Source of the DNA: Acidobacteriota bacterium
Lineage (GTDB): Bacteria; Acidobacteriota; Terriglobia; Terriglobales; Acidobacteriaceae
Length of the DNA stretch: 64,000 bases
Assembly (NCBI GenBank): GCA_003225055.1
Contig: QIAU01000121.1
Location: 62,001 to 126,000, forward strand
Direction: 5' to 3'
Shown: piece after piece, positions 14,712 through 23,617 of the stretch
Layout of the letters: every line of letters begins with the position of its first letter
Numbering within the stretch: the first letter of the stretch is position 1
Program-made: the position numbers and the translations under genes
The notes under the pieces: model-generated
Told to the model about the DNA's origin: nothing
Seen by the model: the letters and a program-made list of their open reading frames with translations, nothing else
The model's database searches: none

Positions 14712-15269
14712 ATGCGTGACGCGGTCAAACGGCTCTGGCCGGAGATCGACTGGATAAAAGATGCGCCCCTGCGTGAACAGGTGACGCAAGCCTGGATCAG
14801 AGCCCTCGAACGCAGTCCACTGAAGGCAGACGACCTCGACCGGATTCCCTTCACCCTGCTGATTCCAAATTGCCCGGTCACGTTTATGGAGCACAAGCGC
14901 TGCGTGGTGCACATCGCTCGGGAGAGCGCCAAGGCCATGCAAGACTTCATGGGCCGGTCTCTCTCGATTGACATGGATACAGTGATCGCCGGCGCCATTC
15001 TGGCGGATGTCGGCAAGTTGCTGGAATACGAACTGGGTCCTGACGGCCAGAGCCGTCAAAGCGAGCGTGGCGAGGCACTGCGGCATCCTTTTACCGGGGT
15101 GGCGCTGGCGTTGGAGTGTGGCGTGCCCCATGCTGTTTGCCACATCATCGCGGCGCACGCCGCTGAAGGCGACCTTGTGAAGCGCACGACTGAGGCCTAC
15201 ATCGTGCACCACGCCGACTTCATGGCCTATTTGCCATTCAAGAATCCCAAGAACATGAAGGTGAAATAA
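14712..15269 (+). CDS. HD-domain-like protein with an altered HD motif
   Basis: A 185-residue protein resembling HD-family metal-dependent phosphohydrolases. It has the first histidines in FMEHKRCVVHIA (about 59-70), a helix LSIDMDTVIAGAILADVGKLLEYE where the family normally has LHDIGK (here His is Ala, Asp is kept), then HPFTGVALA, HIIAAHAAEG and HHADFM. The lost histidine is a metal ligand in the family, so hydrolysis may be weakened or use another arrangement. A GAGAAGG-like ribosome site precedes ATG 14712. It is the first gene of a plus-strand run and ends about 110 bases before the PrpD-type gene, suggesting a link to the tricarboxylate cluster, though this is only positional. Confidence 0.7.
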   Translation: MRDAVKRLWPEIDWIKDAPLREQVTQAWIRALERSPLKADDLDRIPFTLLIPNCPVTFMEHKRCVVHIARESAKAMQDFMGRSLSIDMDTVIAGAILADVGKLLEYELGPDGQSRQSERGEALRHPFTGVALALECGVPHAVCHIIAAHAAEGDLVKRTTEAYIVHHADFMAYLPFKNPKNMKVK

Positions 15270-15376: not shown

Positions 15377-16822
15377 TTGACTACCAAAGAAGCTGTCCTG
15401 ACCAAAGAGACCGTTACCGCTAAGATGTCGCGCTGGGCCGCCAGCCTTCAATATACCCAGCTTTCCAAAGATGCGGTCTACCAAGCCAAGCGTTTGCTGC
15501 TGGACTCGGTCGGCTGCGCCCTGGGCGGCTACCAACAACACGACGTCAAGATTGCGCTGAGCGTCGTGGACGAGATTGCCGGACGTGGGCCCTCCACCGT
15601 CATCGGCGCTGGCAAGCGCATTGACCCCGTTTCCGCCTCCTTGGCCAACGCCCTGATGATCCGCTGCATGGATTACAACGACATTTACTGGAAGCAGGAC
15701 CCATCGCATCCCTCTGATATTTTTCCGGCGGCCTTGGCCTGTGGCGAACGCGCCAAAAGCGATGGAAAAGAGTTGATCGTCAGTCTCGTCCTCGGCCATG
15801 AATTCGAGATGCGTTTCTGCGAGGCGGCTTTTCCGGGAATTCGCGAACGGGGCTGGCATCACGCCACGCTGACCGCGTTTGTCTCGCCGATTGTTGCCGG
15901 GCGAGCCCTGCACCTGAACGGGGAGCAGATGCAGCACGCCATCGGAATCGCGGCCAGTCGCCAGTGCACACTGGGAGCCGTCACGGCGGGCAAACTCACC
16001 ATGATGAAGAATACCGTCGATCCCATGGCAACCCAAAGTGGCGTTTTCGCCGCTCTCCTCGCGGAAAAGGGATACACGGGTCCCGAGCACGTGGTGGACG
16101 GCAAAGAAGGACTGACACAGTGCTTCGGTCCGGAGTGGAAGCTGGATGTGCTGACGCAAGGCTTAGGCGACTCCTGGCGCATTACCCAGTGCGGAATGAA
16201 ATTCTTCCCGACCGAAGCGCTGACCCATGCCCCGATTTCCGCAGTTCTGGATTTGGTGAAAGAAAATGACCTGCACCCCGATCAAGTAGAGAAGATCCAG
16301 ATCCGTTCACTGGCCCGCGCCGCCGACATTCTTTCCGATCCCAGCAAATACGATCCTCATACCAAGGAAACCGCCGACCACTCCCTGCCTTATGTGATTG
16401 CAGCAGCCCTCGTCGACCGCCAGGTCACGCCCGCACAGTTCACCCTGCAGAAGATCATGGACCCGATTATCCGCGGCCAGTTGAACAAGGTCGAGGTGGT
16501 GGCTGACCCTGAAATCGAGAAGGTCTTCCCCGGGTTGCAACGGGTTGTGATAAACCTCATGACCACGAGCGGCCGTTCGTTCACAAAGCAACTGGATTAT
16601 CCGAAAGGCGACCCGCGCAATCCGCTGACCGACCAGGAGGTTGAGGAAAAATTCAGCGCTCTTGGTGACGGCGTCTTGTCGAAAGCTCAACAGGAAAAAT
16701 TGAAAGATGCCATCTGGAATCTGGAGAAGCTCAATTCGGTGAACCAACTGATGGCCCTGATGAAATCAGATACACGTAGGGACAGCCGTTTCCGGCTGTC
16801 CGGGCGAGCGAAGCTTGCCTGA
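15377..16822 (+). CDS. prpD: MmgE/PrpD family dehydratase (2-methylcitrate dehydratase-like)
   Basis: PrpD-fold protein; characterised members dehydrate 2-methylcitrate to 2-methylaconitate without an iron-sulfur cluster, others act on related tricarboxylates. Typical features are LLLDSVGCALGGYQ (about 35-48), IRCMDYNDIYWKQDPSHPSDIFPAAL (about 95-120), RGWHHATLTAF, GIAASRQCTLGAVTAGKLTMMKN and FFPTEALTHAPISA. The chosen TTG start at 15377 follows a GAGGCGGGG site; ATG 15425 is an alternative. The last residues (about 467-481) are read from a palindromic repeat element and are probably not part of the ancestral protein. It is followed at once by a fused aconitase gene, so dehydration here and rehydration there may be successive steps. 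The actual substrate (methylcitrate, citrate or homocitrate) is uncertain. Confidence 0.87.
   Translation: MTTKEAVLTKETVTAKMSRWAASLQYTQLSKDAVYQAKRLLLDSVGCALGGYQQHDVKIALSVVDEIAGRGPSTVIGAGKRIDPVSASLANALMIRCMDYNDIYWKQDPSHPSDIFPAALACGERAKSDGKELIVSLVLGHEFEMRFCEAAFPGIRERGWHHATLTAFVSPIVAGRALHLNGEQMQHAIGIAASRQCTLGAVTAGKLTMMKNTVDPMATQSGVFAALLAEKGYTGPEHVVDGKEGLTQCFGPEWKLDVLTQGLGDSWRITQCGMKFFPTEALTHAPISAVLDLVKENDLHPDQVEKIQIRSLARAADILSDPSKYDPHTKETADHSLPYVIAAALVDRQVTPAQFTLQKIMDPIIRGQLNKVEVVADPEIEKVFPGLQRVVINLMTTSGRSFTKQLDYPKGDPRNPLTDQEVEEKFSALGDGVLSKAQQEKLKDAIWNLEKLNSVNQLMALMKSDTRRDSRFRLSGRAKLA
16781..16819. repeat. Tandem-hairpin palindromic element at the prpD stop
   Basis: Hairpin one has an 8-bp stem GACAGCCG/CGGCTGTC around a TTTC loop (16781-16800). 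Hairpin two pairs GGCGAGC with GCTTGCC around GAA (16803-16819, one mismatch). A close relative lies at 21996-22032 in the same cluster. The element is translated as the end of PrpD and directly precedes the TGA. Confidence 0.7.
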
Positions 16823-16832
16823 AGTCGCGGCT

Positions 16833-18776
16833 ATGGCCCAAACAGTTGTTGAAAAGATCGCCCAAGCCCATCTTGCCGAAGGCCCTAAGCGGCCGCTGAG
16901 GACTGGTGACTTTGTCTCCATTCGTCCCTTCCACGTCATGACTCACGACAACACCTCGGCCGTGATGAGCAAGTTCAAGGGAATTGGCGCGAAAAGAATT
17001 CATGACCCGAAACAGCTGGTTTTCGCTCTCGACCATGACATCCAGAACCGGGATGAAGCCAACCAGAAGAAATACCGCGCTATAGAGGCGTTCGCGAAAG
17101 AACATGGCGTAGATTTTTACCCCGCGGGTTCGGGCATCGGTCACCAGATCATGGTCGAGCGCGGCTACGTGGTGCCGGGATCCTTTGTCGTCGCCTCCGA
17201 TTCTCATTCCAACATGTACGGTGCACTGGGCGCTGTGGGTACTCCCATTGTGCGCACCGACGCGGCCGCCGTGTGGGCGATGGGAGAATTCTGGTGGCAG
17301 ATTCCGCGCAGCGTGCAGGTTTGGTTGGAAGGAGAGCTGCCTGCCGGTGCTACGGGTAAGGACGTCATCATCGCCCTTTGCGGTCTCTACAACCACGATG
17401 AAGTGCTAAACGCCGCGGTCGAGTTCAGCGGCCCCGGCGTCGCCAGCCTGTCCATGGACGCCCGCCTCTCTATCTCCAACATGACCACCGAGTGGGGGCC
17501 GCTGGTCGGCTGGTTCCCGGTAGATGCAATCACAATCAATTACCTGCGCGGTGTACATCAGCGGCTGAGGACGGATGGCATCGAACGGTTCGCAGAAAAG
17601 GACATTGAAAGGTGGGCCAACCATCCTCGGCTTACGGATGCCGGCGCAAGCTACGCAGCTCGCATCGTGCTCGACCTCAGCCAGGTTACTCCCCATGTCT
17701 CCGGCCCTGACACAGTTCAGGTTATGCAGTCGCTCGCCGACATGGAGAAGAAGAAAGTAGCGATTCAAAAAGCGTACCTGCTCTCGTGCGTGAATTCGCG
17801 GCTCGAGGATTTGGAAGCAGCGGCGAAAGTTTTGAAAGGCAAGAGGGTCGCTTCAGCTGTGAAGTTCTACCTCGGTGCGGCCAGCGCCTGGGTGCAGCAG
17901 GAAGCCGAAAAGCGCGGGATTTGGCAGACGCTGCTTGATGCAGGCGCCCACGCATTGCCGGCCGGCTGCGGACCGTGCATTGGCTTGGGTGTTGGCCTGC
18001 TGGAAAAGGGCGAGGTCGGCATTTCCGCCACGAATCGGAATTTCAAGGGCCGGATGGGTTCGCGCCATGCTCAATGCTATCTCGCCAGCCCGGAAGTGGT
18101 GGCAGCGTCGGCGGTTGCGGGCTACATCCGAGGTCCCTACGAATCCGCCGATCGCGCTCCGAAACGCGAATACCGGGAGTTCACCGAAAAGGTGCGTGCC
18201 GAGGCAGTCGAAATCCTGCCCGGCTTTCCGGAGGGCGTGAAGGGCCGCTTGATTTTCATGCCCCAGGACAACGTCAACACCGACGCCATCTACGGCAAGG
18301 ACTACACCTACCGCGACGACATGACCCCGGAGATGATGGCCAAGATAGTCATGGAAAACTACGACCCGCAGTTTGCTGTGCGCACGCGAGCAGGCGATGT
18401 GATCGTCGGCGGCTTTAATTTCGGCACCGGTTCCAGCCGAGAGCAGGCGGTGACCTGTTTAAAGGCCAAAGGCGTCCGTCTGGTGATCGCCGCCAGCTTC
18501 TCACAGACATACCTGCGCAATGCGTATAACAATGGTTCTCTGTGCGTGGAAGTGCCAGAACTGGTGAAGCGCCTGCGCGAGCAGTTTGCGAAGGAGATCG
18601 CAGCAAAGGAGAAGACGATCATTTCCGGCGATGAAATCGCTATTGATTTCACTTCCGGCACGATTACCTGGCGTGCAGAGAAATTCAGTTTCCCGCCGCT
18701 CGGCACAGTGCCGCAATCGCTCGTAATTGCTGGAGGCGTCGAGAACCTGGTGGCCAAGCGCCTGGGCTTGGCGTGA
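16833..18776 (+). CDS. Fused aconitase-family hydratase, Lys4/homoaconitase type
   Basis: Iron-sulfur hydro-lyase with the large (LeuC-like, about 1-430) and small (LeuD-like, about 465-640) domains in one chain. The 4Fe-4S cysteines are visible in LLSCVNSRL and in AGCGPCIGLG. VVASDSHSNMYG, GTPIVRTDAAAVWA and the NMTTEWGPLVGWFPVD segment strongly recall fungal homoaconitase Lys4, and the small domain has GGFNFGTGSSREQAV. Homoaconitase hydrates homoaconitate to homoisocitrate; aconitase or 2-methylaconitate hydration are alternatives. ATG 16833 is chosen over the upstream TTG 16815, which lies inside the repeat at the prpD stop. Neighbours (PrpD dehydratase before, isocitrate-type dehydrogenase after) fit a dehydration, rehydration, oxidation series. 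Confidence 0.85.
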   Translation: MAQTVVEKIAQAHLAEGPKRPLRTGDFVSIRPFHVMTHDNTSAVMSKFKGIGAKRIHDPKQLVFALDHDIQNRDEANQKKYRAIEAFAKEHGVDFYPAGSGIGHQIMVERGYVVPGSFVVASDSHSNMYGALGAVGTPIVRTDAAAVWAMGEFWWQIPRSVQVWLEGELPAGATGKDVIIALCGLYNHDEVLNAAVEFSGPGVASLSMDARLSISNMTTEWGPLVGWFPVDAITINYLRGVHQRLRTDGIERFAEKDIERWANHPRLTDAGASYAARIVLDLSQVTPHVSGPDTVQVMQSLADMEKKKVAIQKAYLLSCVNSRLEDLEAAAKVLKGKRVASAVKFYLGAASAWVQQEAEKRGIWQTLLDAGAHALPAGCGPCIGLGVGLLEKGEVGISATNRNFKGRMGSRHAQCYLASPEVVAASAVAGYIRGPYESADRAPKREYREFTEKVRAEAVEILPGFPEGVKGRLIFMPQDNVNTDAIYGKDYTYRDDMTPEMMAKIVMENYDPQFAVRTRAGDVIVGGFNFGTGSSREQAVTCLKAKGVRLVIAASFSQTYLRNAYNNGSLCVEVPELVKRLREQFAKEIAAKEKTIISGDEIAIDFTSGTITWRAEKFSFPPLGTVPQSLVIAGGVENLVAKRLGLA

Positions 18777-18999
18777 TGCTGGGTTGGCTTCAGATGTCGT
18801 CATCCATGCAGACGCGAGTCTGCGAAGGACCTGGCGTGCACGACCGACAAAGTTAGCCACTGCGCGCGAGATCCTTCGCCAAGCTCGCGCTTGGTTCAAG
18901 ATGGCGACATACATTTACTGGGACTCAGACCCTTGTTATCCCGAGCGCAGCGAGGGATGTAGGTCTTGCTTTTTATAAGGTTGAGGAGAACCCGCTCTC
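18777..18999. repeat. Intergenic gap with palindromic repeat fragments
   Basis: Contains words of a dispersed family: GATCCTTCGCCAAGCTCGC (from 18869) and ATCCCGAGCGCAGCGAGGGA (from 18938). Related GTCATCCTGAGC/GGATC words occur at 20194, 23981, 26766 and 51360. The ribosome site GAGGAG for the next gene is at its right end. Confidence 0.55.
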
Positions 19000-20187
19000 A
19001 TGCCTAAATACAAGGTGGTCACGATGCCCGGCGATGGGATCGGCAACCAGGTCCTGCCCGAGGCGTTGCGGCTCTTGAGAGCGGTTGGTTTTGACGCCGA
19101 ATACATTCACGCCGACATAGGCTGGGACTGCTGGTGCAACGAGGGCGACGCACTGCCCGACCGCACCATCGAGTTGCTGGCCAAGCACAAGCTCGGACTC
19201 TTTGGTGCGATTACCTCAAAGCCCAAGAAGGAAGCCGATGCCGGATTACAGCCATCGCTGAAAGACAAAGGCTACGCATACTACAGTCCGATTGTAACGA
19301 TGCGCCAGCGCTTCAATTTGGACACCTGCATTCGTCCCTGCCTTTCATTTCCCGGCAATCCGCTGAACTTCATTCGCAAGAAGCCCGATGGTGGCTTTGA
19401 AGAGCCATTCGTACGCGTGGTGGTGTTTCGCCAGAACACGGAAGGTCTTTATGCCGGAGTGGAATGGACCAACCCGCCCCACCCGGTGCGCAGCGCGATG
19501 GCAACTCATCCTAAGTTCAAACCGTTTTCCTCTACCCCCGGTCCCGATCTGGCGATTTCCGTTCGCGTCATCACCCGCAAGGCCGCCCACAACATCACCA
19601 AGGCTGCCTTCGAATGGGCGAAGAAGTACGGTTACAAATCAGTGACCATCTGCGAAAAGCCCAACGTTCTCCGTGAGACTTCGGGCATGATGGAAGAGGA
19701 AGCCAAGCTAGTTGCCAAGGAGTATCCGGGGATTGTGCTCTGGTCCACCAACATTGACGCGCAAACCATGTGGCTGACCAAGAATCCGGAAGATTACGGC
19801 GTCGTAGTTGCTTCAAACCTGTTCGGCGACGTGATCTCCGACGCCTTCGCCGGCCTGGTGGGCGGCCTCGGCTTCGCGGCTTCCGGCAATATTGGTGACG
19901 AGGTGGCGGTGTTCGAGCCGACGCACGGCTCTGCGCCCAAGTATGCCGAACTGGATCCGCCGATCGTGAACCCGATTGCCATGTTTCTGTCGGCCGTGAT
20001 GATGCTGGAGCACGTAGGCGAGAGCGATAAAGTCAAACGAATCCGCCAGGCCATCGAAGTGGTGGTCAAGGAAGGTAAGGTGCGCACCTACGACATGATG
20101 CGCATCCCTGGCGGACCTAAGTCTATTAGCCAGGGCGCAGCCAGCACGATTCAGATGACGAACGCGGTGTTGGCGAAACTGAACTAG
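19000..20187 (+). CDS. Isocitrate/isopropylmalate-family dehydrogenase
   Basis: Beta-decarboxylating dehydrogenase of the isocitrate/3-isopropylmalate/homoisocitrate family. Visible are MPGDGIGNQVLPEAL at the N-terminus, the substrate-loop arginines in MRQRFNLDTCIRPC (about 105-118), FRQNTEGLYAGVEW (about 143-156), the KPNVLRETSG and NIDAQTMWL catalytic segments, NLFGDVISDAFAGLVGG, and the cofactor motif EPTHGSAPKYAE. Lys-Tyr in APKY matches NADP-type isocitrate dehydrogenase rather than the Asp-Ile of NAD-type relatives, which hints at NADP use. Length 395. It follows a Lys4-type hydratase, so it would oxidise the hydroxy tricarboxylate made there, releasing carbon dioxide. Whether this is isocitrate, homoisocitrate or a methyl analogue is open. 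Confidence 0.87.
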   Translation: MPKYKVVTMPGDGIGNQVLPEALRLLRAVGFDAEYIHADIGWDCWCNEGDALPDRTIELLAKHKLGLFGAITSKPKKEADAGLQPSLKDKGYAYYSPIVTMRQRFNLDTCIRPCLSFPGNPLNFIRKKPDGGFEEPFVRVVVFRQNTEGLYAGVEWTNPPHPVRSAMATHPKFKPFSSTPGPDLAISVRVITRKAAHNITKAAFEWAKKYGYKSVTICEKPNVLRETSGMMEEEAKLVAKEYPGIVLWSTNIDAQTMWLTKNPEDYGVVVASNLFGDVISDAFAGLVGGLGFAASGNIGDEVAVFEPTHGSAPKYAELDPPIVNPIAMFLSAVMMLEHVGESDKVKRIRQAIEVVVKEGKVRTYDMMRIPGGPKSISQGAASTIQMTNAVLAKLN

Positions 20188-20757
20188 TTCAATGTTGTCG
20201 TCCTGAGCAACCGACCCGCGAGGCGGCTAAGACTGGAATGGCAAGGTCCAAAGCGCGTATCGATTCTATTTATTAGCACCGGGACGGAAGGTGAAAACCG
20301 ATCAGCGCATGGATGCTTACACCGGGAGGGCGGAGAACCTCGACGGTCTCAAAGCCCTGCCGCAGAGATTGCCGGCGGTGCCGAATGCAGGGTTCGTAGA
20401 ATTCGTAGAAAAGGAGCAGTGTGTGTTTCTGGCGCAGCTGAAGAAGAACGTGCAGATCCCGGCGTCTTGATCTCTCCAACTGTACTGAATACGAGGGCTT
20501 CGTGAATCACCCGCACCTGGAGGACTAGCGGGAGAACGGCGGGCTTCCTCCCTTGGAGATGTTTGGCCGTGGCCCTGCTTTGGCGTAGGAATTGAGGGAC
20601 CGGCTGACGGCACTCGGGGGCCTGCGGCATTATCATTGTTGCTTTCAATGGTTCCACCGGCTCGTTTCGTTTTCATACCTTGAGGCATGATGAGCGATGC
20701 CTCGATAAGGATGTCGATACTTTTTGCTATGTCACGGCAGTTCGGGAAACCTAGACC
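20188..20757. other. Intergenic region, repeat fragment plus possible gene remnant
   Basis: Starts with a dispersed-repeat fragment (GTCGTCCTGAGCAACCGA and following bases to about 20237). A short plus-strand frame from ATG 20309 to the TGA at about 20473 encodes 54 residues including AGFVEFVEKEQCVFLAQLKK; it has no recognised relative and may be a remnant. No terminator or promoter was clear. Confidence 0.35.
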
Positions 20758-21996
20758 ATGAGTAAGGCAACCGAAGCCAAAGCGATGCGGGTGGGCGCAG
20801 CCGGGCACTGGGGCGAAAACATTCGCTCCGATACCCATGTCTGGATTGAGCCCCGTGAGCGCGGGCTAGTAGACATCGTGCTGGAATCACGCGTTAAGCC
20901 GTATTACGGCGAGGCCATACTCGCCCAGGCGCGGCAGGTCCTCAGTGCGCTTAGAGTTGAGCACGCCCAGGTGGTTATCCACGATGAAGGCGCATTGCCG
21001 TTTGTAGTCTCCGCCCGCATCGAAGCCGCGGCAAAGCGCGCGGGGTTCGGCGAAGGGCTGAAAGCGCTCCCCGAGAAGATTGTTATTGCCGAGGCCTCGC
21101 CCCGGGATCGGCTGCGCCGATCCCGCTTATATCTTCCAGGCGGCGAGCCCAAGTATTTCATCAACGCCGCTTTGCATGGCCCCGATGCAGTCATTCTCGA
21201 CTTGGAAGATTCCGTTCACTCCGCCGAAAAGGATGCCGCACGCATTCTGGTTCGCAACGCGCTCCGCGCCGTGGATTTCGGCGCGTGCGAGCGCATGGTG
21301 CGGATCAACCAGCTTCCGCTTGGCTTGGACGATCTCGAAGAAGTCATCCCGGAATCGCCAGATTTGATCCTGATTCCCAAGGTTGAGCGTCCGGAACAGG
21401 TCATCGAGGTCACGCAGCGCATCCGGCAGATCAGGACCAAGCATGGAGTCGATCGTGAGATCTGGCTCATCCCGATCCTCGAATCGGCCCTCGGCATTGA
21501 AAACGCCTTCAAGATCGCGAGCGCCAGCTCGCAAGTGGTGGCCCTGACGATCGGGCTGGAAGACTACACCGCCGATCTGGGAGCGCCAAAGACCGCGCTC
21601 GGTGCAGAGTCTCTTTTTGCCCGCCAGCGTCTCGTAAATGCGGCACGGGCGGCGGGCGTCCAGGTGAATGACTCGGTCTATAGCGATGTTGGCGACATGG
21701 AAGGGTTGCGGGTTTGGGGGCTGAATTCCAAGGCCATGGGTTTTGAAGGCATGGGATGTGTACACCCCCTGCAAATTCCGGTGATCCACGAGGCGTTTGC
21801 ACCTACGAAGGCGGAGATTGAGAGGGCGCTGAAAATTGTTGCTGCCTTCAACGAGGCCCAACAAAAGGGTCTGGCGGTGGTCAGTTTGGGATCGAAAATG
21901 ATCGATCCGCCCGTAGTGCAGCGCGCTCTAAAGCTGATATCTCGCGCACAGTCGATGGGTCTGGTAGCAGGAAGTCTGGTGGCAGGAAACACCTAG
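20758..21996 (+). CDS. CitD-CitE fusion: citrate lyase acyl-carrier plus beta subunit
   Basis: Two citrate lyase parts in one 412-residue chain. Residues about 9-95 match the small CitD acyl-carrier subunit: GHWGENIRSDTHVWIEP, with Ser24 where CitD carries its phosphoribosyl-dephospho-CoA arm, then VESRVKPYYG-like and RIEAAAKRAGF. Residues about 120-400 are the CitE/HpcH aldolase barrel: LYLPGGEPKYF, DAVILDLEDSVHSAEKD, RINQLPLG, ILIPKVERPEQV, ILESALGIENAF and LGLEDYTADLGA-like text with the metal ligands. CitE cleaves the (3S)-citryl thioester on the carrier to oxaloacetate and an acetyl thioester. The CitF partner gene lies 58 bases downstream. The fusion is unusual; canonical citD and citE are separate genes. 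Maturation genes (citC, citX, citG) are not in the window. Confidence 0.85.
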   Translation: MSKATEAKAMRVGAAGHWGENIRSDTHVWIEPRERGLVDIVLESRVKPYYGEAILAQARQVLSALRVEHAQVVIHDEGALPFVVSARIEAAAKRAGFGEGLKALPEKIVIAEASPRDRLRRSRLYLPGGEPKYFINAALHGPDAVILDLEDSVHSAEKDAARILVRNALRAVDFGACERMVRINQLPLGLDDLEEVIPESPDLILIPKVERPEQVIEVTQRIRQIRTKHGVDREIWLIPILESALGIENAFKIASASSQVVALTIGLEDYTADLGAPKTALGAESLFARQRLVNAARAAGVQVNDSVYSDVGDMEGLRVWGLNSKAMGFEGMGCVHPLQIPVIHEAFAPTKAEIERALKIVAAFNEAQQKGLAVVSLGSKMIDPPVVQRALKLISRAQSMGLVAGSLVAGNT

Positions 21997-22032
21997 ACAG
22001 CCGCCTCCGCTGTCCGGCCGAGCGAAGCTCGG
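21996..22032. repeat. Tandem-hairpin palindromic element between citDE and citF
   Basis: GACAGCCGCCTCCGCTGTC (imperfect hairpin, 21996-22014) is followed by CCGAGC-GAA-GCTCGG (perfect 6-bp stem, 22018-22032). It matches the element at 16781-16819 in order and loop, and lies in the intercistronic gap where it would be transcribed. Confidence 0.7.
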
Positions 22033-22054
22033 CAGCTGAACTGAGGAACTGAGA

Positions 22055-23617
22055 ATGATCCCGAAGGTCGAACTAGCCTTGAACGCCGCCGGACGCATGG
22101 TTCCGGCGATGGTCAACGGACGCCCCCAGATCCCGTACATCGGAGTGGGCAAATATCAGCCGCGCGCACGCAAGGCTGCGTCGCCGGTGCGCACGGCCGC
22201 CAGCTATCCGGAGAACGGCGATAAGCGCATCGCGGACCTTGAAACCGCCCTACGCAAATGTGGTCTCCGCGACGGCATGGTGATCTCCAGCCACCATCAT
22301 CTTCGCGATGGCGATAGCGTTGCGCTGATGGCCCTACAAACTGCAGCACGGATGGGCGTGAAAGACCTGATGTGGTTCCCCAGCGCCTCCTTCCCTTCGC
22401 AAAAAGACGCCATCAGCCTAATGGAATCAGGAACAATCCATCACATTGAAGGCAGCATGAACGGCCCTCTCGGCGATTACTGCACTCAGGGAAAAATGCG
22501 CGGCATGGGCGTGCTCCGTTCGCATGGAGGCCGCTGGCAGGCCATTCAGGATGGTGAAGTTCACATTGACGTCGCAGTGGTCGCAGCACCGACCGCCGAT
22601 TCCTTCGGCAACGCCGATGGGACGCATGGCAAATCGGCTTGTGGCTTGCTAGGATTTGCATTGGCCGATTCCATCTACGCCGATCAGGTCATTGTTGTGA
22701 CTGACAACCTGGTTCCGTTCCCGTGCATTCCCTCGCAAATCCAGGGTAACAACGTTGACTTCGTCGTACAGGTTGATTCGATCGGCGATCCCACAAGGAT
22801 CGTATCCGGCACGACTCAGATCACTCGTTCTCCCGACCGGTTGCGCATCGCCGAGTTCGTGGCGCGCTTCCTGCGCGAGGCAGGGATTATGCGCAACGGC
22901 TTCTCGTTCCAGGCCGGCTCTGGCGGGATCGCGTTGGCATTTGTCGAGTACCTCAAGAACATGATGTTGGAAGGGGGCGTGAAAGCGCGGTTCGTCCGTG
23001 GCGGCTCGACTAAGTATCTTGTGGAATTGCTGGAAAAGGGGCTCACGGACTACATCCTTGACGGCCAGACGTTCGATCTGGATGCAGTAAGGTCGCTCGC
23101 CAAGGATCCGCGTCACGTCGCGACGTCACCATTCACTTCTTACAACTACCATGGCAAAGGGAATTTCGCTTCCATGGTGGATGCGGTCGTGCTCGGCGCG
23201 ACCGAGGTGGATGTCAAATTCAATGGGAATGTCGTGACGCACTCCGACGGGCGCTTGCTCCACGGCATCGGCGGATGGCAGAACTGCCTGGCGGCAGGCT
23301 GCACCATATTGGCGGTGCCCAGCTTCCGTGACCGCATTCCGGCGATTGTGGATGAGGTAACTACGCTCACCGGCCCAGGCGAGTTGATTGATGTCGTGGT
23401 AACCGAACGGGGAATTGCGATCAATCCGAGCCGTCAGGACTTGCTCGACGCAGTAAAAGGTTCCAGGCTGCCTATCCGTCCTATTCAGGACATCAAGGCC
23501 GAGGTCGAGCGCATTTGTGGGGGCAAACCCGCCAAGCCCACGCTCAGCGAGCGCCCGGTGGCAGTCGTGAAATGGGTAGATGGCACCGTGCTCGATACGG
23601 TGTGGCAGGTCTCCTAG
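22055..23617 (+). CDS. citF: Citrate lyase alpha subunit (citrate CoA/ACP-transferase)
   Basis: CitF-family transferase of 520 residues. It exchanges the acetyl group on the acyl carrier for citrate, making the citryl thioester that CitE cleaves. The family signature GMVISSHHHLRDGD (about 72-85) is clear, as are GSMNGPLGDYCTQGKMRG, VDVAVVAAPTADSFGNADGTHGKSACG, PFPCIPSQIQGNNVDFVVQVDSIGDP, SFQAGSGGIALAF and the DVVVTERGIAINP segment near the end. A GAGGA ribosome site precedes ATG 22055. It forms a functional pair with the CitD-CitE fusion upstream. The stop codon lies one base from the convergent rplS stop, leaving no room for a separate terminator. Confidence 0.92.
   Translation: MIPKVELALNAAGRMVPAMVNGRPQIPYIGVGKYQPRARKAASPVRTAASYPENGDKRIADLETALRKCGLRDGMVISSHHHLRDGDSVALMALQTAARMGVKDLMWFPSASFPSQKDAISLMESGTIHHIEGSMNGPLGDYCTQGKMRGMGVLRSHGGRWQAIQDGEVHIDVAVVAAPTADSFGNADGTHGKSACGLLGFALADSIYADQVIVVTDNLVPFPCIPSQIQGNNVDFVVQVDSIGDPTRIVSGTTQITRSPDRLRIAEFVARFLREAGIMRNGFSFQAGSGGIALAFVEYLKNMMLEGGVKARFVRGGSTKYLVELLEKGLTDYILDGQTFDLDAVRSLAKDPRHVATSPFTSYNYHGKGNFASMVDAVVLGATEVDVKFNGNVVTHSDGRLLHGIGGWQNCLAAGCTILAVPSFRDRIPAIVDEVTTLTGPGELIDVVVTERGIAINPSRQDLLDAVKGSRLPIRPIQDIKAEVERICGGKPAKPTLSERPVAVVKWVDGTVLDTVWQVS

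Follow-up and report, generated by a model that had tools for sequence, protein, structure and literature searches.

We report a conserved set of six genes in a 64,000-nucleotide stretch of an Acidobacteriaceae genome (assembly GCA_003225055.1, contig QIAU01000121.1, positions 62,001 to 126,000; hereafter the window) which, judged by sequence, looks like a complete, undescribed route between acetate and a keto acid via a citrate-like compound. It is common to soil Acidobacteria and to certain distant relatives of theirs. The set encodes an HD-domain protein, a dehydratase of the MmgE/PrpD family (PrpD), a Lys4-type hydratase (Hac), a dehydrogenase of the isocitrate/homoisocitrate family (Idh), a fusion of CitD- and CitE-like domains (CitDE) and a CitF-like transferase. 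We consider it likely that these proteins interconvert acetate plus a 2-oxo acid, through a tricarboxylic acid X and its isomer iso-X, with a longer 2-oxo acid plus CO2. The fuller statement, in which X is homocitrate and free coenzyme A (CoA) is the carrier, is more tentative and falls a little short of an even chance. No description of the six-gene set was found in the open-licence literature, judged mainly by titles and the beginnings of abstracts.

The genes of the set and a proposed pathway

All positions are those of the window.

14712-15269, plus strand: HD-domain protein, first gene of the set (NCBIfam HDIG)
15377-16822, plus strand: MmgE/PrpD-family dehydratase, putative tricarboxylate dehydratase (Pfam MmgE_PrpD N and C domains)
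16833-18776, plus strand, open reading frame from 16815: Lys4-type (homoaconitase family) hydratase with large and small subunits fused (TIGR00139)
19000-20187, plus strand: isocitrate/homoisocitrate-family dehydrogenase with an LFGAITS...SPIV substrate-pocket motif (Pfam Iso_dh)
20758-21996, plus strand: CitD-like domain fused to a CitE-like lyase (Pfam ACP at residues 24-95, HpcH_HpaI at 121-337)
22055-23617, plus strand: CitF-like CoA/acyl transferase (Pfam CitF, 430.9 bits)

A first-pass annotation of this DNA had described the last five as plus-strand genes of these enzyme classes. All five reading frames were confirmed in place, and each product passed the Pfam cut-offs of its class (MmgE/PrpD, aconitase, isocitrate/isopropylmalate dehydrogenase, ACP plus HpcH/HpaI, and CitF, respectively). 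The likely start of the hydratase is 16833; alignment to most relatives begins at residue 7. The HD gene, and the loss of the arm-bearing serine from the CitD part described below, go beyond that account, whose interpretation as a whole is partly supported.

In the pathway we propose, CitF would transfer CoA from acetyl-CoA to X with release of acetate, and the CitE part would cleave X-CoA to acetyl-CoA and a 2-oxo acid. PrpD would dehydrate X and the Lys4-type hydratase would rehydrate the product to iso-X, the two acting as a split isomerase; the dehydrogenase would then oxidatively decarboxylate iso-X, yielding a 2-oxo acid lengthened by one carbon. The net reaction, reversible in principle, would be acetate + 2-oxo acid + NAD(P)+ <-> longer 2-oxo acid + CO2 + NAD(P)H. 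The four reactions are read from enzyme class; the use of CoA, the substrate and the order of steps are part of the proposal. X is most probably homocitrate, because the hydratase and the dehydrogenase both lean towards homocitrate enzymes, and the route would then connect 2-oxoglutarate with 2-oxoadipate.

Conservation and linkage of the set

By scanning GTDB contigs with the hydratase we fetched 58 loci, nearly all of them from metagenome-assembled genomes. The gene set recurs in Acidobacteriota and Planctomycetota, and the view of it as a conserved unit was borne out: all six genes stand in the order of the window in 23 of the 58 loci. Among the remaining 35, about 21 end at a contig edge beside the set (coordinates read by eye), and the others are reordered, split or incomplete. 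Counting pairs as both genes within one locus rather than as strict neighbours, and only in loci with room to tell, we found CitDE with CitF in 33 of 33 loci, PrpD with the hydratase in 45 of 51, the hydratase with the dehydrogenase in 43 of 49, the dehydrogenase with CitDE in 35 of 38 and the HD gene with PrpD in 34 of 37. Counts for PrpD rest on the fetched loci.

Linkage persists where the order differs. A Phycisphaerales chromosome (locus L077) has the order Idh-Hac-HD-PrpD-CitDE-CitF, and another planctomycete (L067) has the same order but lacks the HD gene and has extra reading frames ahead of CitF. In genomes titled Holophagae or Thermoanaerobaculales the set is divided into blocks: five loci (L057-L061) have PrpD-Hac, and four genomes (G061, G062, G063 and G068, the first with about 4 kb from Idh to CitDE) have Idh-CitDE-CitF. 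L065 and L069 show a Hac-CitDE-CitF block, Idh being at another place in the genome, and in genome G069 CitF and Idh are each isolated. Split blocks were rechecked by tblastn, since the initial gene calling had missed genes. When 18 hydratase-bearing genomes were searched whole, 17 held a matching dehydrogenase (59-86% identity) and 15 held CitF. A search of 61 near genomes found the CitDE fusion (66-100% identity) in 13 of the 37 from the same family, that of the window included, and in none of the 24 outside it, seven of which had remote CitE-like matches only. A tblastn search of plasmids gave no match of at least 60% identity for any of the five proteins; LeuC/LeuD-like proteins, aconitate hydratases, citrate lyases, dehydrogenases and MmgE/PrpD proteins were among the matches listed.

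Orthologues thus keep the set, whole or in part, across phyla, and it is therefore not a chance assembly. Co-occurrence despite rearrangement is good evidence for one shared function, and we infer that the six genes make up a single metabolic module. Two observations speak against so tight a unit: three of the 18 hydratase-bearing genomes gave no CitF match, and assembly JAIQFP01 has PrpD-Hac-Idh on two contigs (L022 and L025) with no CitDE behind either.

Some loci show irregularities of their own. The PrpD gene of L022 is in two pieces, and L022 and L025 may be two copies or a mixed bin. In the Phycisphaerales genome G073 (L077/L145), CitF appears on the chromosome as two partial matches separated by about 15 kb (C1:1045669-1047018 for query 70-519 and 1061616-1062626 for query 6-342), with masked N near one of them, as if the gene had been duplicated and then cut, or misassembled. 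Genome G066, titled Phycisphaerae, has the module dehydrogenase near a DapF-like protein (by eye; L140), at a distance from the rest of the set, and a search of that genome gave no CitF match. One in-frame TGA was counted within the 66%-identical CitDE match of L013 (G016 C28).

A lyase without the usual arm site

In the CitD part, the position that is serine in all seven canonical CitD controls (Escherichia coli, Klebsiella, Gluconobacter, Melissococcus, two Fusobacterium and Peptoclostridium) is arginine in all 47 family sequences, that of the window included, and the S-x-D pattern is broken in all 47. We take the aligned serine to be the attachment site of the phosphoribosyl-dephospho-CoA arm. 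The observation that no maturation gene is visible in the window extends to the whole of its genome for CitG and CitX (CitC was not searched). CitG was absent from all 13 CitDE carriers among the 61 near genomes, where the sole match was in a non-carrier (G060), and from all 18 further hydratase-bearing genomes; CitX was absent from the 61 near genomes, the 13 carriers included, to which its search was limited. The two genome sets overlap by at least one genome (G005 and G077 look identical). E. coli K-12, for comparison, has both citG and citX. All three citrate lyase equivalog models were also missed: CitD scored 49.8 bits against a cut-off of 63.5, CitE 260.9 against 443.4, with citrate lyase beta as its best equivalog, and CitF 474.8, narrowly below the 501.45 of TIGR01584, which the control CitF of Peptoclostridium passes with 623.7 bits. 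On these three grounds CitDEF, first taken as a citrate lyase, can no longer be read as one of the known kind.

A citryl-type thioester, if one is formed, must on this evidence sit on free CoA or on some other arm. All 15 aligned fusions keep the CitD domain, with some positions invariant, and it would appear to be retained as structure without the usual covalent arm, free CoA being the likely carrier; we infer that the lyase works with free CoA. A passage in PMC6232273, citing Dimroth and Eggerer (1975), reports that CitE cleaves citryl-CoA. An AlphaFold model of CitDE (mean predicted local distance difference test score, pLDDT, 78.8; stretch 109-142 below 50) matches the folds of human CLYBL and of malyl-CoA lyases, enzymes acting on CoA esters; the fold match does not settle the substrate.

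The same data bear on an improbable alternative, that CitDE carries its arm on the serine one residue further, attached by a transferase unrelated to CitX, and is otherwise a normal ACP enzyme of the citrate lyase type. The residue after the lost site is serine in 46 of the 47 family sequences, which weighs against the use of free CoA, and the upkeep of the CitD domain with its invariant positions would fit as well. Yet this serine is alanine in L065, the S-x-D pattern is broken throughout, and neither CitG nor CitX was found in the genomes searched for each.

Identity to known lyases is similar in all directions, at 36-43% for CitE and CitF against seven references, and both proteins are about equally distant from citrate lyases and from the enzyme of a citramalate cluster. 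X might be citramalate or another malate-type acid, with CitDE-CitF as an arm-less citramalate lyase and with PrpD, the hydratase and the dehydrogenase interconverting citramalate, citraconate, 3-methylmalate and 2-oxobutyrate, a reading to which we give only a small probability. In its favour, CitE is nearest by identity to the citramalate-cluster lyase (42.8%), a point against homocitrate as well, though a Fusobacterium lyase scores more bits; the top-ranked plasmid lyase lies in the methylaspartate (glutamate fermentation) cluster of Peptoclostridium, at 43% identity; and the CitE tree places the cluster enzyme nearest to the family, with a weak support of 80. The CitF tree, by contrast, sets the family apart, CitF is as far from four citrate lyases (38-42%) as from the citramalate-cluster CitF (41.5%), and the pocket motif of the dehydrogenase is closer to that of homoisocitrate dehydrogenase than to those of LeuB and DmlA.

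On the Peptoclostridium acidaminophilum plasmid EAL2_808p (L158), citX, a gene for a hypothetical protein and citC stand opposite citD-lyase-citF, beside methylaspartate mutase genes; this is likely a plasmid-borne citramalate lyase.

A proposed split isomerase: PrpD and the Lys4-type hydratase

Against the homoaconitase model TIGR00139 the hydratase reaches 750.7 bits, above the cut-off of 529.9, and its L077 orthologue scores 764.7; paralogues in the genome of the window reach 164 (LeuC) and 185 bits (a third paralogue), and AcnA was not listed at E<=1e-30. The motif GSSREQ is present in 50 of 50 sequences, and at least 98% of these sequences have the CGxC cysteines. A tree with aconitases and LeuC was distorted by long branches (AcnB 8.3, own C276 4.4), so that classification was made by profile scores. 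The proposal that the hydratase is Lys4-like accordingly stands by profile score, with the tree speaking neither for nor against it. A point against homoaconitate as substrate is that position 500 is arginine in 47 of the 50 sequences. We tentatively equate the loop around it with the corresponding loop of yeast Aco1/Aco2. According to a passage in PMC3556520, such an arginine favours aconitate over homoaconitate in these yeast enzymes.

PrpD is, by sequence, a distinct branch of the MmgE/PrpD family. It fell far short of all three 2-methylcitrate dehydratase equivalogs (63.9 versus 458, 88.2 versus 575 and 87.8 versus 950 bits), and a role in the 2-methylcitrate cycle was rejected on that ground. 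That cycle, with PrpD and AcnB or AcnD, also pairs a PrpD-family dehydratase with a hydratase of the aconitase superfamily, but the present set lacks PrpB and PrpC. 2-Methylisocitrate is moreover a tertiary alcohol and could not feed the dehydrogenase of the set. Among PDB relatives of PrpD, an epimerase, Bacillus IRG1 and cis-aconitate decarboxylases rank ahead of PrpD proper, and PrpD may for this reason have a decarboxylase role. Positions that we take to be its active site are conserved in 37 sequences. E. coli wild-type PrpD has measurable activity on citrate according to PMC9468356, which makes PrpD a reasonable candidate for the dehydrating partner of the hydratase. According to PMC3556520, Lys4-type enzymes can depend on another enzyme for the dehydration of homocitrate, and a split isomerase formed by PrpD and the Lys4-like hydratase, as first suggested by analogy with fungal lysine synthesis, seems the best reading of the pair.

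The dehydrogenase

A quick tree with 21 rows, made without bootstrap and with SH-aLRT (Shimodaira-Hasegawa-like approximate likelihood ratio test) support, places the eight rows of the dehydrogenase family in a clade of their own (100), apart from seven rows on the isocitrate dehydrogenase side (99). These seven have the pocket residues KGPxTTP (KSPLTTP in one, 6ltf) and, without exception, S[LIV]N, whereas the family has FGAITSKP and SPIV, the latter retained in at least 98% of 55 aligned orthologues. By these sequences the dehydrogenase falls outside the ordinary isocitrate dehydrogenases, in agreement with what had been expected of it. The LFGA...SPIV motif is common to it and to the homoisocitrate dehydrogenase of Schizosaccharomyces pombe (3ty3), and so points to homoisocitrate without proving it; the motif is not known to be defining, and the Thermus homoisocitrate dehydrogenase has LFGA but GAIR in place of SPIV.

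Several scores count against a preference for homoisocitrate. The dehydrogenase is below all homoisocitrate dehydrogenase equivalogs (AksF2, the best of them, 270.8 versus 540, AksF 251.9 versus 500 bits); its top PDB match is an isocitrate dehydrogenase at 198.4 bits, in effect tied with the Thermus homoisocitrate dehydrogenase at 196.8; 3ty3 ranks only ninth among its PDB matches, at 147.3 bits; and isocitrate dehydrogenases are also the best matches to the 75 residues surrounding the motif.

Substrate and place in metabolism

Homocitrate is favoured as substrate on present sequence comparisons, with citrate next. If X were citrate, the set would provide a second route from citrate via cis-aconitate (PrpD) and isocitrate (the Lys4-like hydratase) to 2-oxoglutarate, coupled with a citrate lyase of the CoA type, and would interconvert acetate and oxaloacetate with 2-oxoglutarate and CO2 outside the normal tricarboxylic acid (TCA) cycle. 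We regard this as rather unlikely, even with the closeness of CitF to the citrate lyase alpha model, citrate lyase beta as the best equivalog of CitE, the activity on citrate reported for E. coli PrpD (PMC9468356), the conserved Arg500 and the isocitrate dehydrogenase at the head of the PDB matches all on its side. Against it stand the Lys4-type score of the hydratase, the absence of KGPxTTP and S[LIV]N from the dehydrogenase, and AcnA and NADP-Icd, both over cut-off, already in the genome. A further aconitase-family match, not all of them classified, occurs in 16 of the 17 other hydratase-bearing genomes; genome G074 (2.3 Mb) has one match in all. The genome of the window also holds LeuC, LeuB (assigned from its position behind a LeuA-like gene and from the dehydrogenase tree), a tartrate dehydrogenase and a relative of NAD isocitrate dehydrogenase. 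Since AcnA and NADP-Icd are present, the idea that the set stands in for the normal aconitase or isocitrate dehydrogenase was rejected for this genome.

A point that tells against homocitrate is that LysA is over cut-off in this genome, so that homocitrate has no obvious biosynthetic use there, and lysine biosynthesis is an unlikely role for the set in it. With AcnA, NADP-Icd and LysA present elsewhere, this organism has the module in addition to its normal TCA cycle and does not need it for lysine. Among the 18 hydratase-bearing genomes, LysA is over cut-off in eight, below it in five and without a match in five (G066, G068, G072, G073 and G075). The remark that no homocitrate synthase is visible in the window also holds more widely: the model TIGR02146 is over cut-off in none of the 17 genomes searched, that of the window included. 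Weaker relatives occur in 11 of the 17, with five in the genome of the window, and the other six (G061, G063, G069, G072, G073 and G075) gave no match of any strength to a model that matched 14 of 14 control genomes. Organisms without a LysA or homocitrate synthase match may be amino-acid auxotrophs, or their assemblies may have gaps.

The homocitrate pathway would resemble known systems in part. Like citrate and citramalate lyases, the set has CitD-, CitE- and CitF-type sequences in the gene order D-E-F; unlike them, it has D and E fused, arginine for the arm serine, no CitG or CitX in the genomes searched, and scores below all three citrate lyase cut-offs. With the upper half of the fungal alpha-aminoadipate pathway (Lys4, Lys12) it shares a hydratase over the homoaconitase cut-off, a dehydrogenase with the LFGA...SPIV motif of the S. 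pombe enzyme, and the need there too for a second enzyme in homocitrate dehydration (PMC3556520). It differs in that PrpD rather than aconitase would be the dehydratase, that a lyase-type enzyme would replace homocitrate synthase, and that the set is bacterial, LysA passing its cut-off in eight of the 18 genomes searched. A bolder extension, which we think doubtful, is that several phyla run the segment between 2-oxoglutarate and 2-oxoadipate with an arm-less, free-CoA homocitrate lyase substituting for homocitrate synthase and with PrpD as homocitrate dehydratase, so connecting acetate, 2-oxoglutarate, CO2 and 2-oxoadipate reversibly and without ATP, possibly for the breakdown of lysine or 2-aminoadipate.

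If our reading is true, an enzyme of the citrate lyase type can shed its covalent arm and act on free CoA, mostly uncultured bacteria own a tricarboxylic acid route missing from pathway maps, and PrpD is a dedicated partner for the long-puzzling first half of the isomerisation of homocitrate to homoisocitrate. Family names alone would file these genes under citrate lyase, the methylcitrate cycle, lysine synthesis and the TCA cycle, and the metabolism of the organisms would then be misstated.

Elsewhere in the genome of the window (L087, G000 C42), an open reading frame of 487 amino acids, MmgE/PrpD-like by eye, stands directly before a tartrate dehydrogenase that is over cut-off, perhaps a second pairing of the PrpD and dehydrogenase families.

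The HD-domain protein and the surroundings of the set

The HD-domain protein scores 31.7 bits against NCBIfam HDIG (cut-off 27.6) and has no Pfam match. In an alignment of 12 sequences the histidine of the His-Asp pair is replaced by alanine (LADVGK), and several other His and Asp positions are invariant. Its model (mean pLDDT 82.6) has the general HD fold, with YhaM as best fold match (Z 15.0, root-mean-square deviation 3.2, 164 aligned). In the Phycisphaerales locus L077 its gene lies between those of the hydratase and PrpD. A regulatory or housekeeping hydrolase would be our guess.

The set is flanked by minus-strand genes of other kinds, upstream for a hydrolase, an Ig-like-domain protein, an adenosine-deaminase-like protein and a phosphorylase, and downstream for proteins that include L19, TrmD, DoxX, AhpC/TSA, DUF4440 and SRP54; it is therefore bounded by apparently unrelated genes. 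Within it, the 570-base gap between the dehydrogenase and CitDE genes (20188-20757) exceeds the other gaps, and the same interval is about 350-450 bases in L028, L036 and L041.

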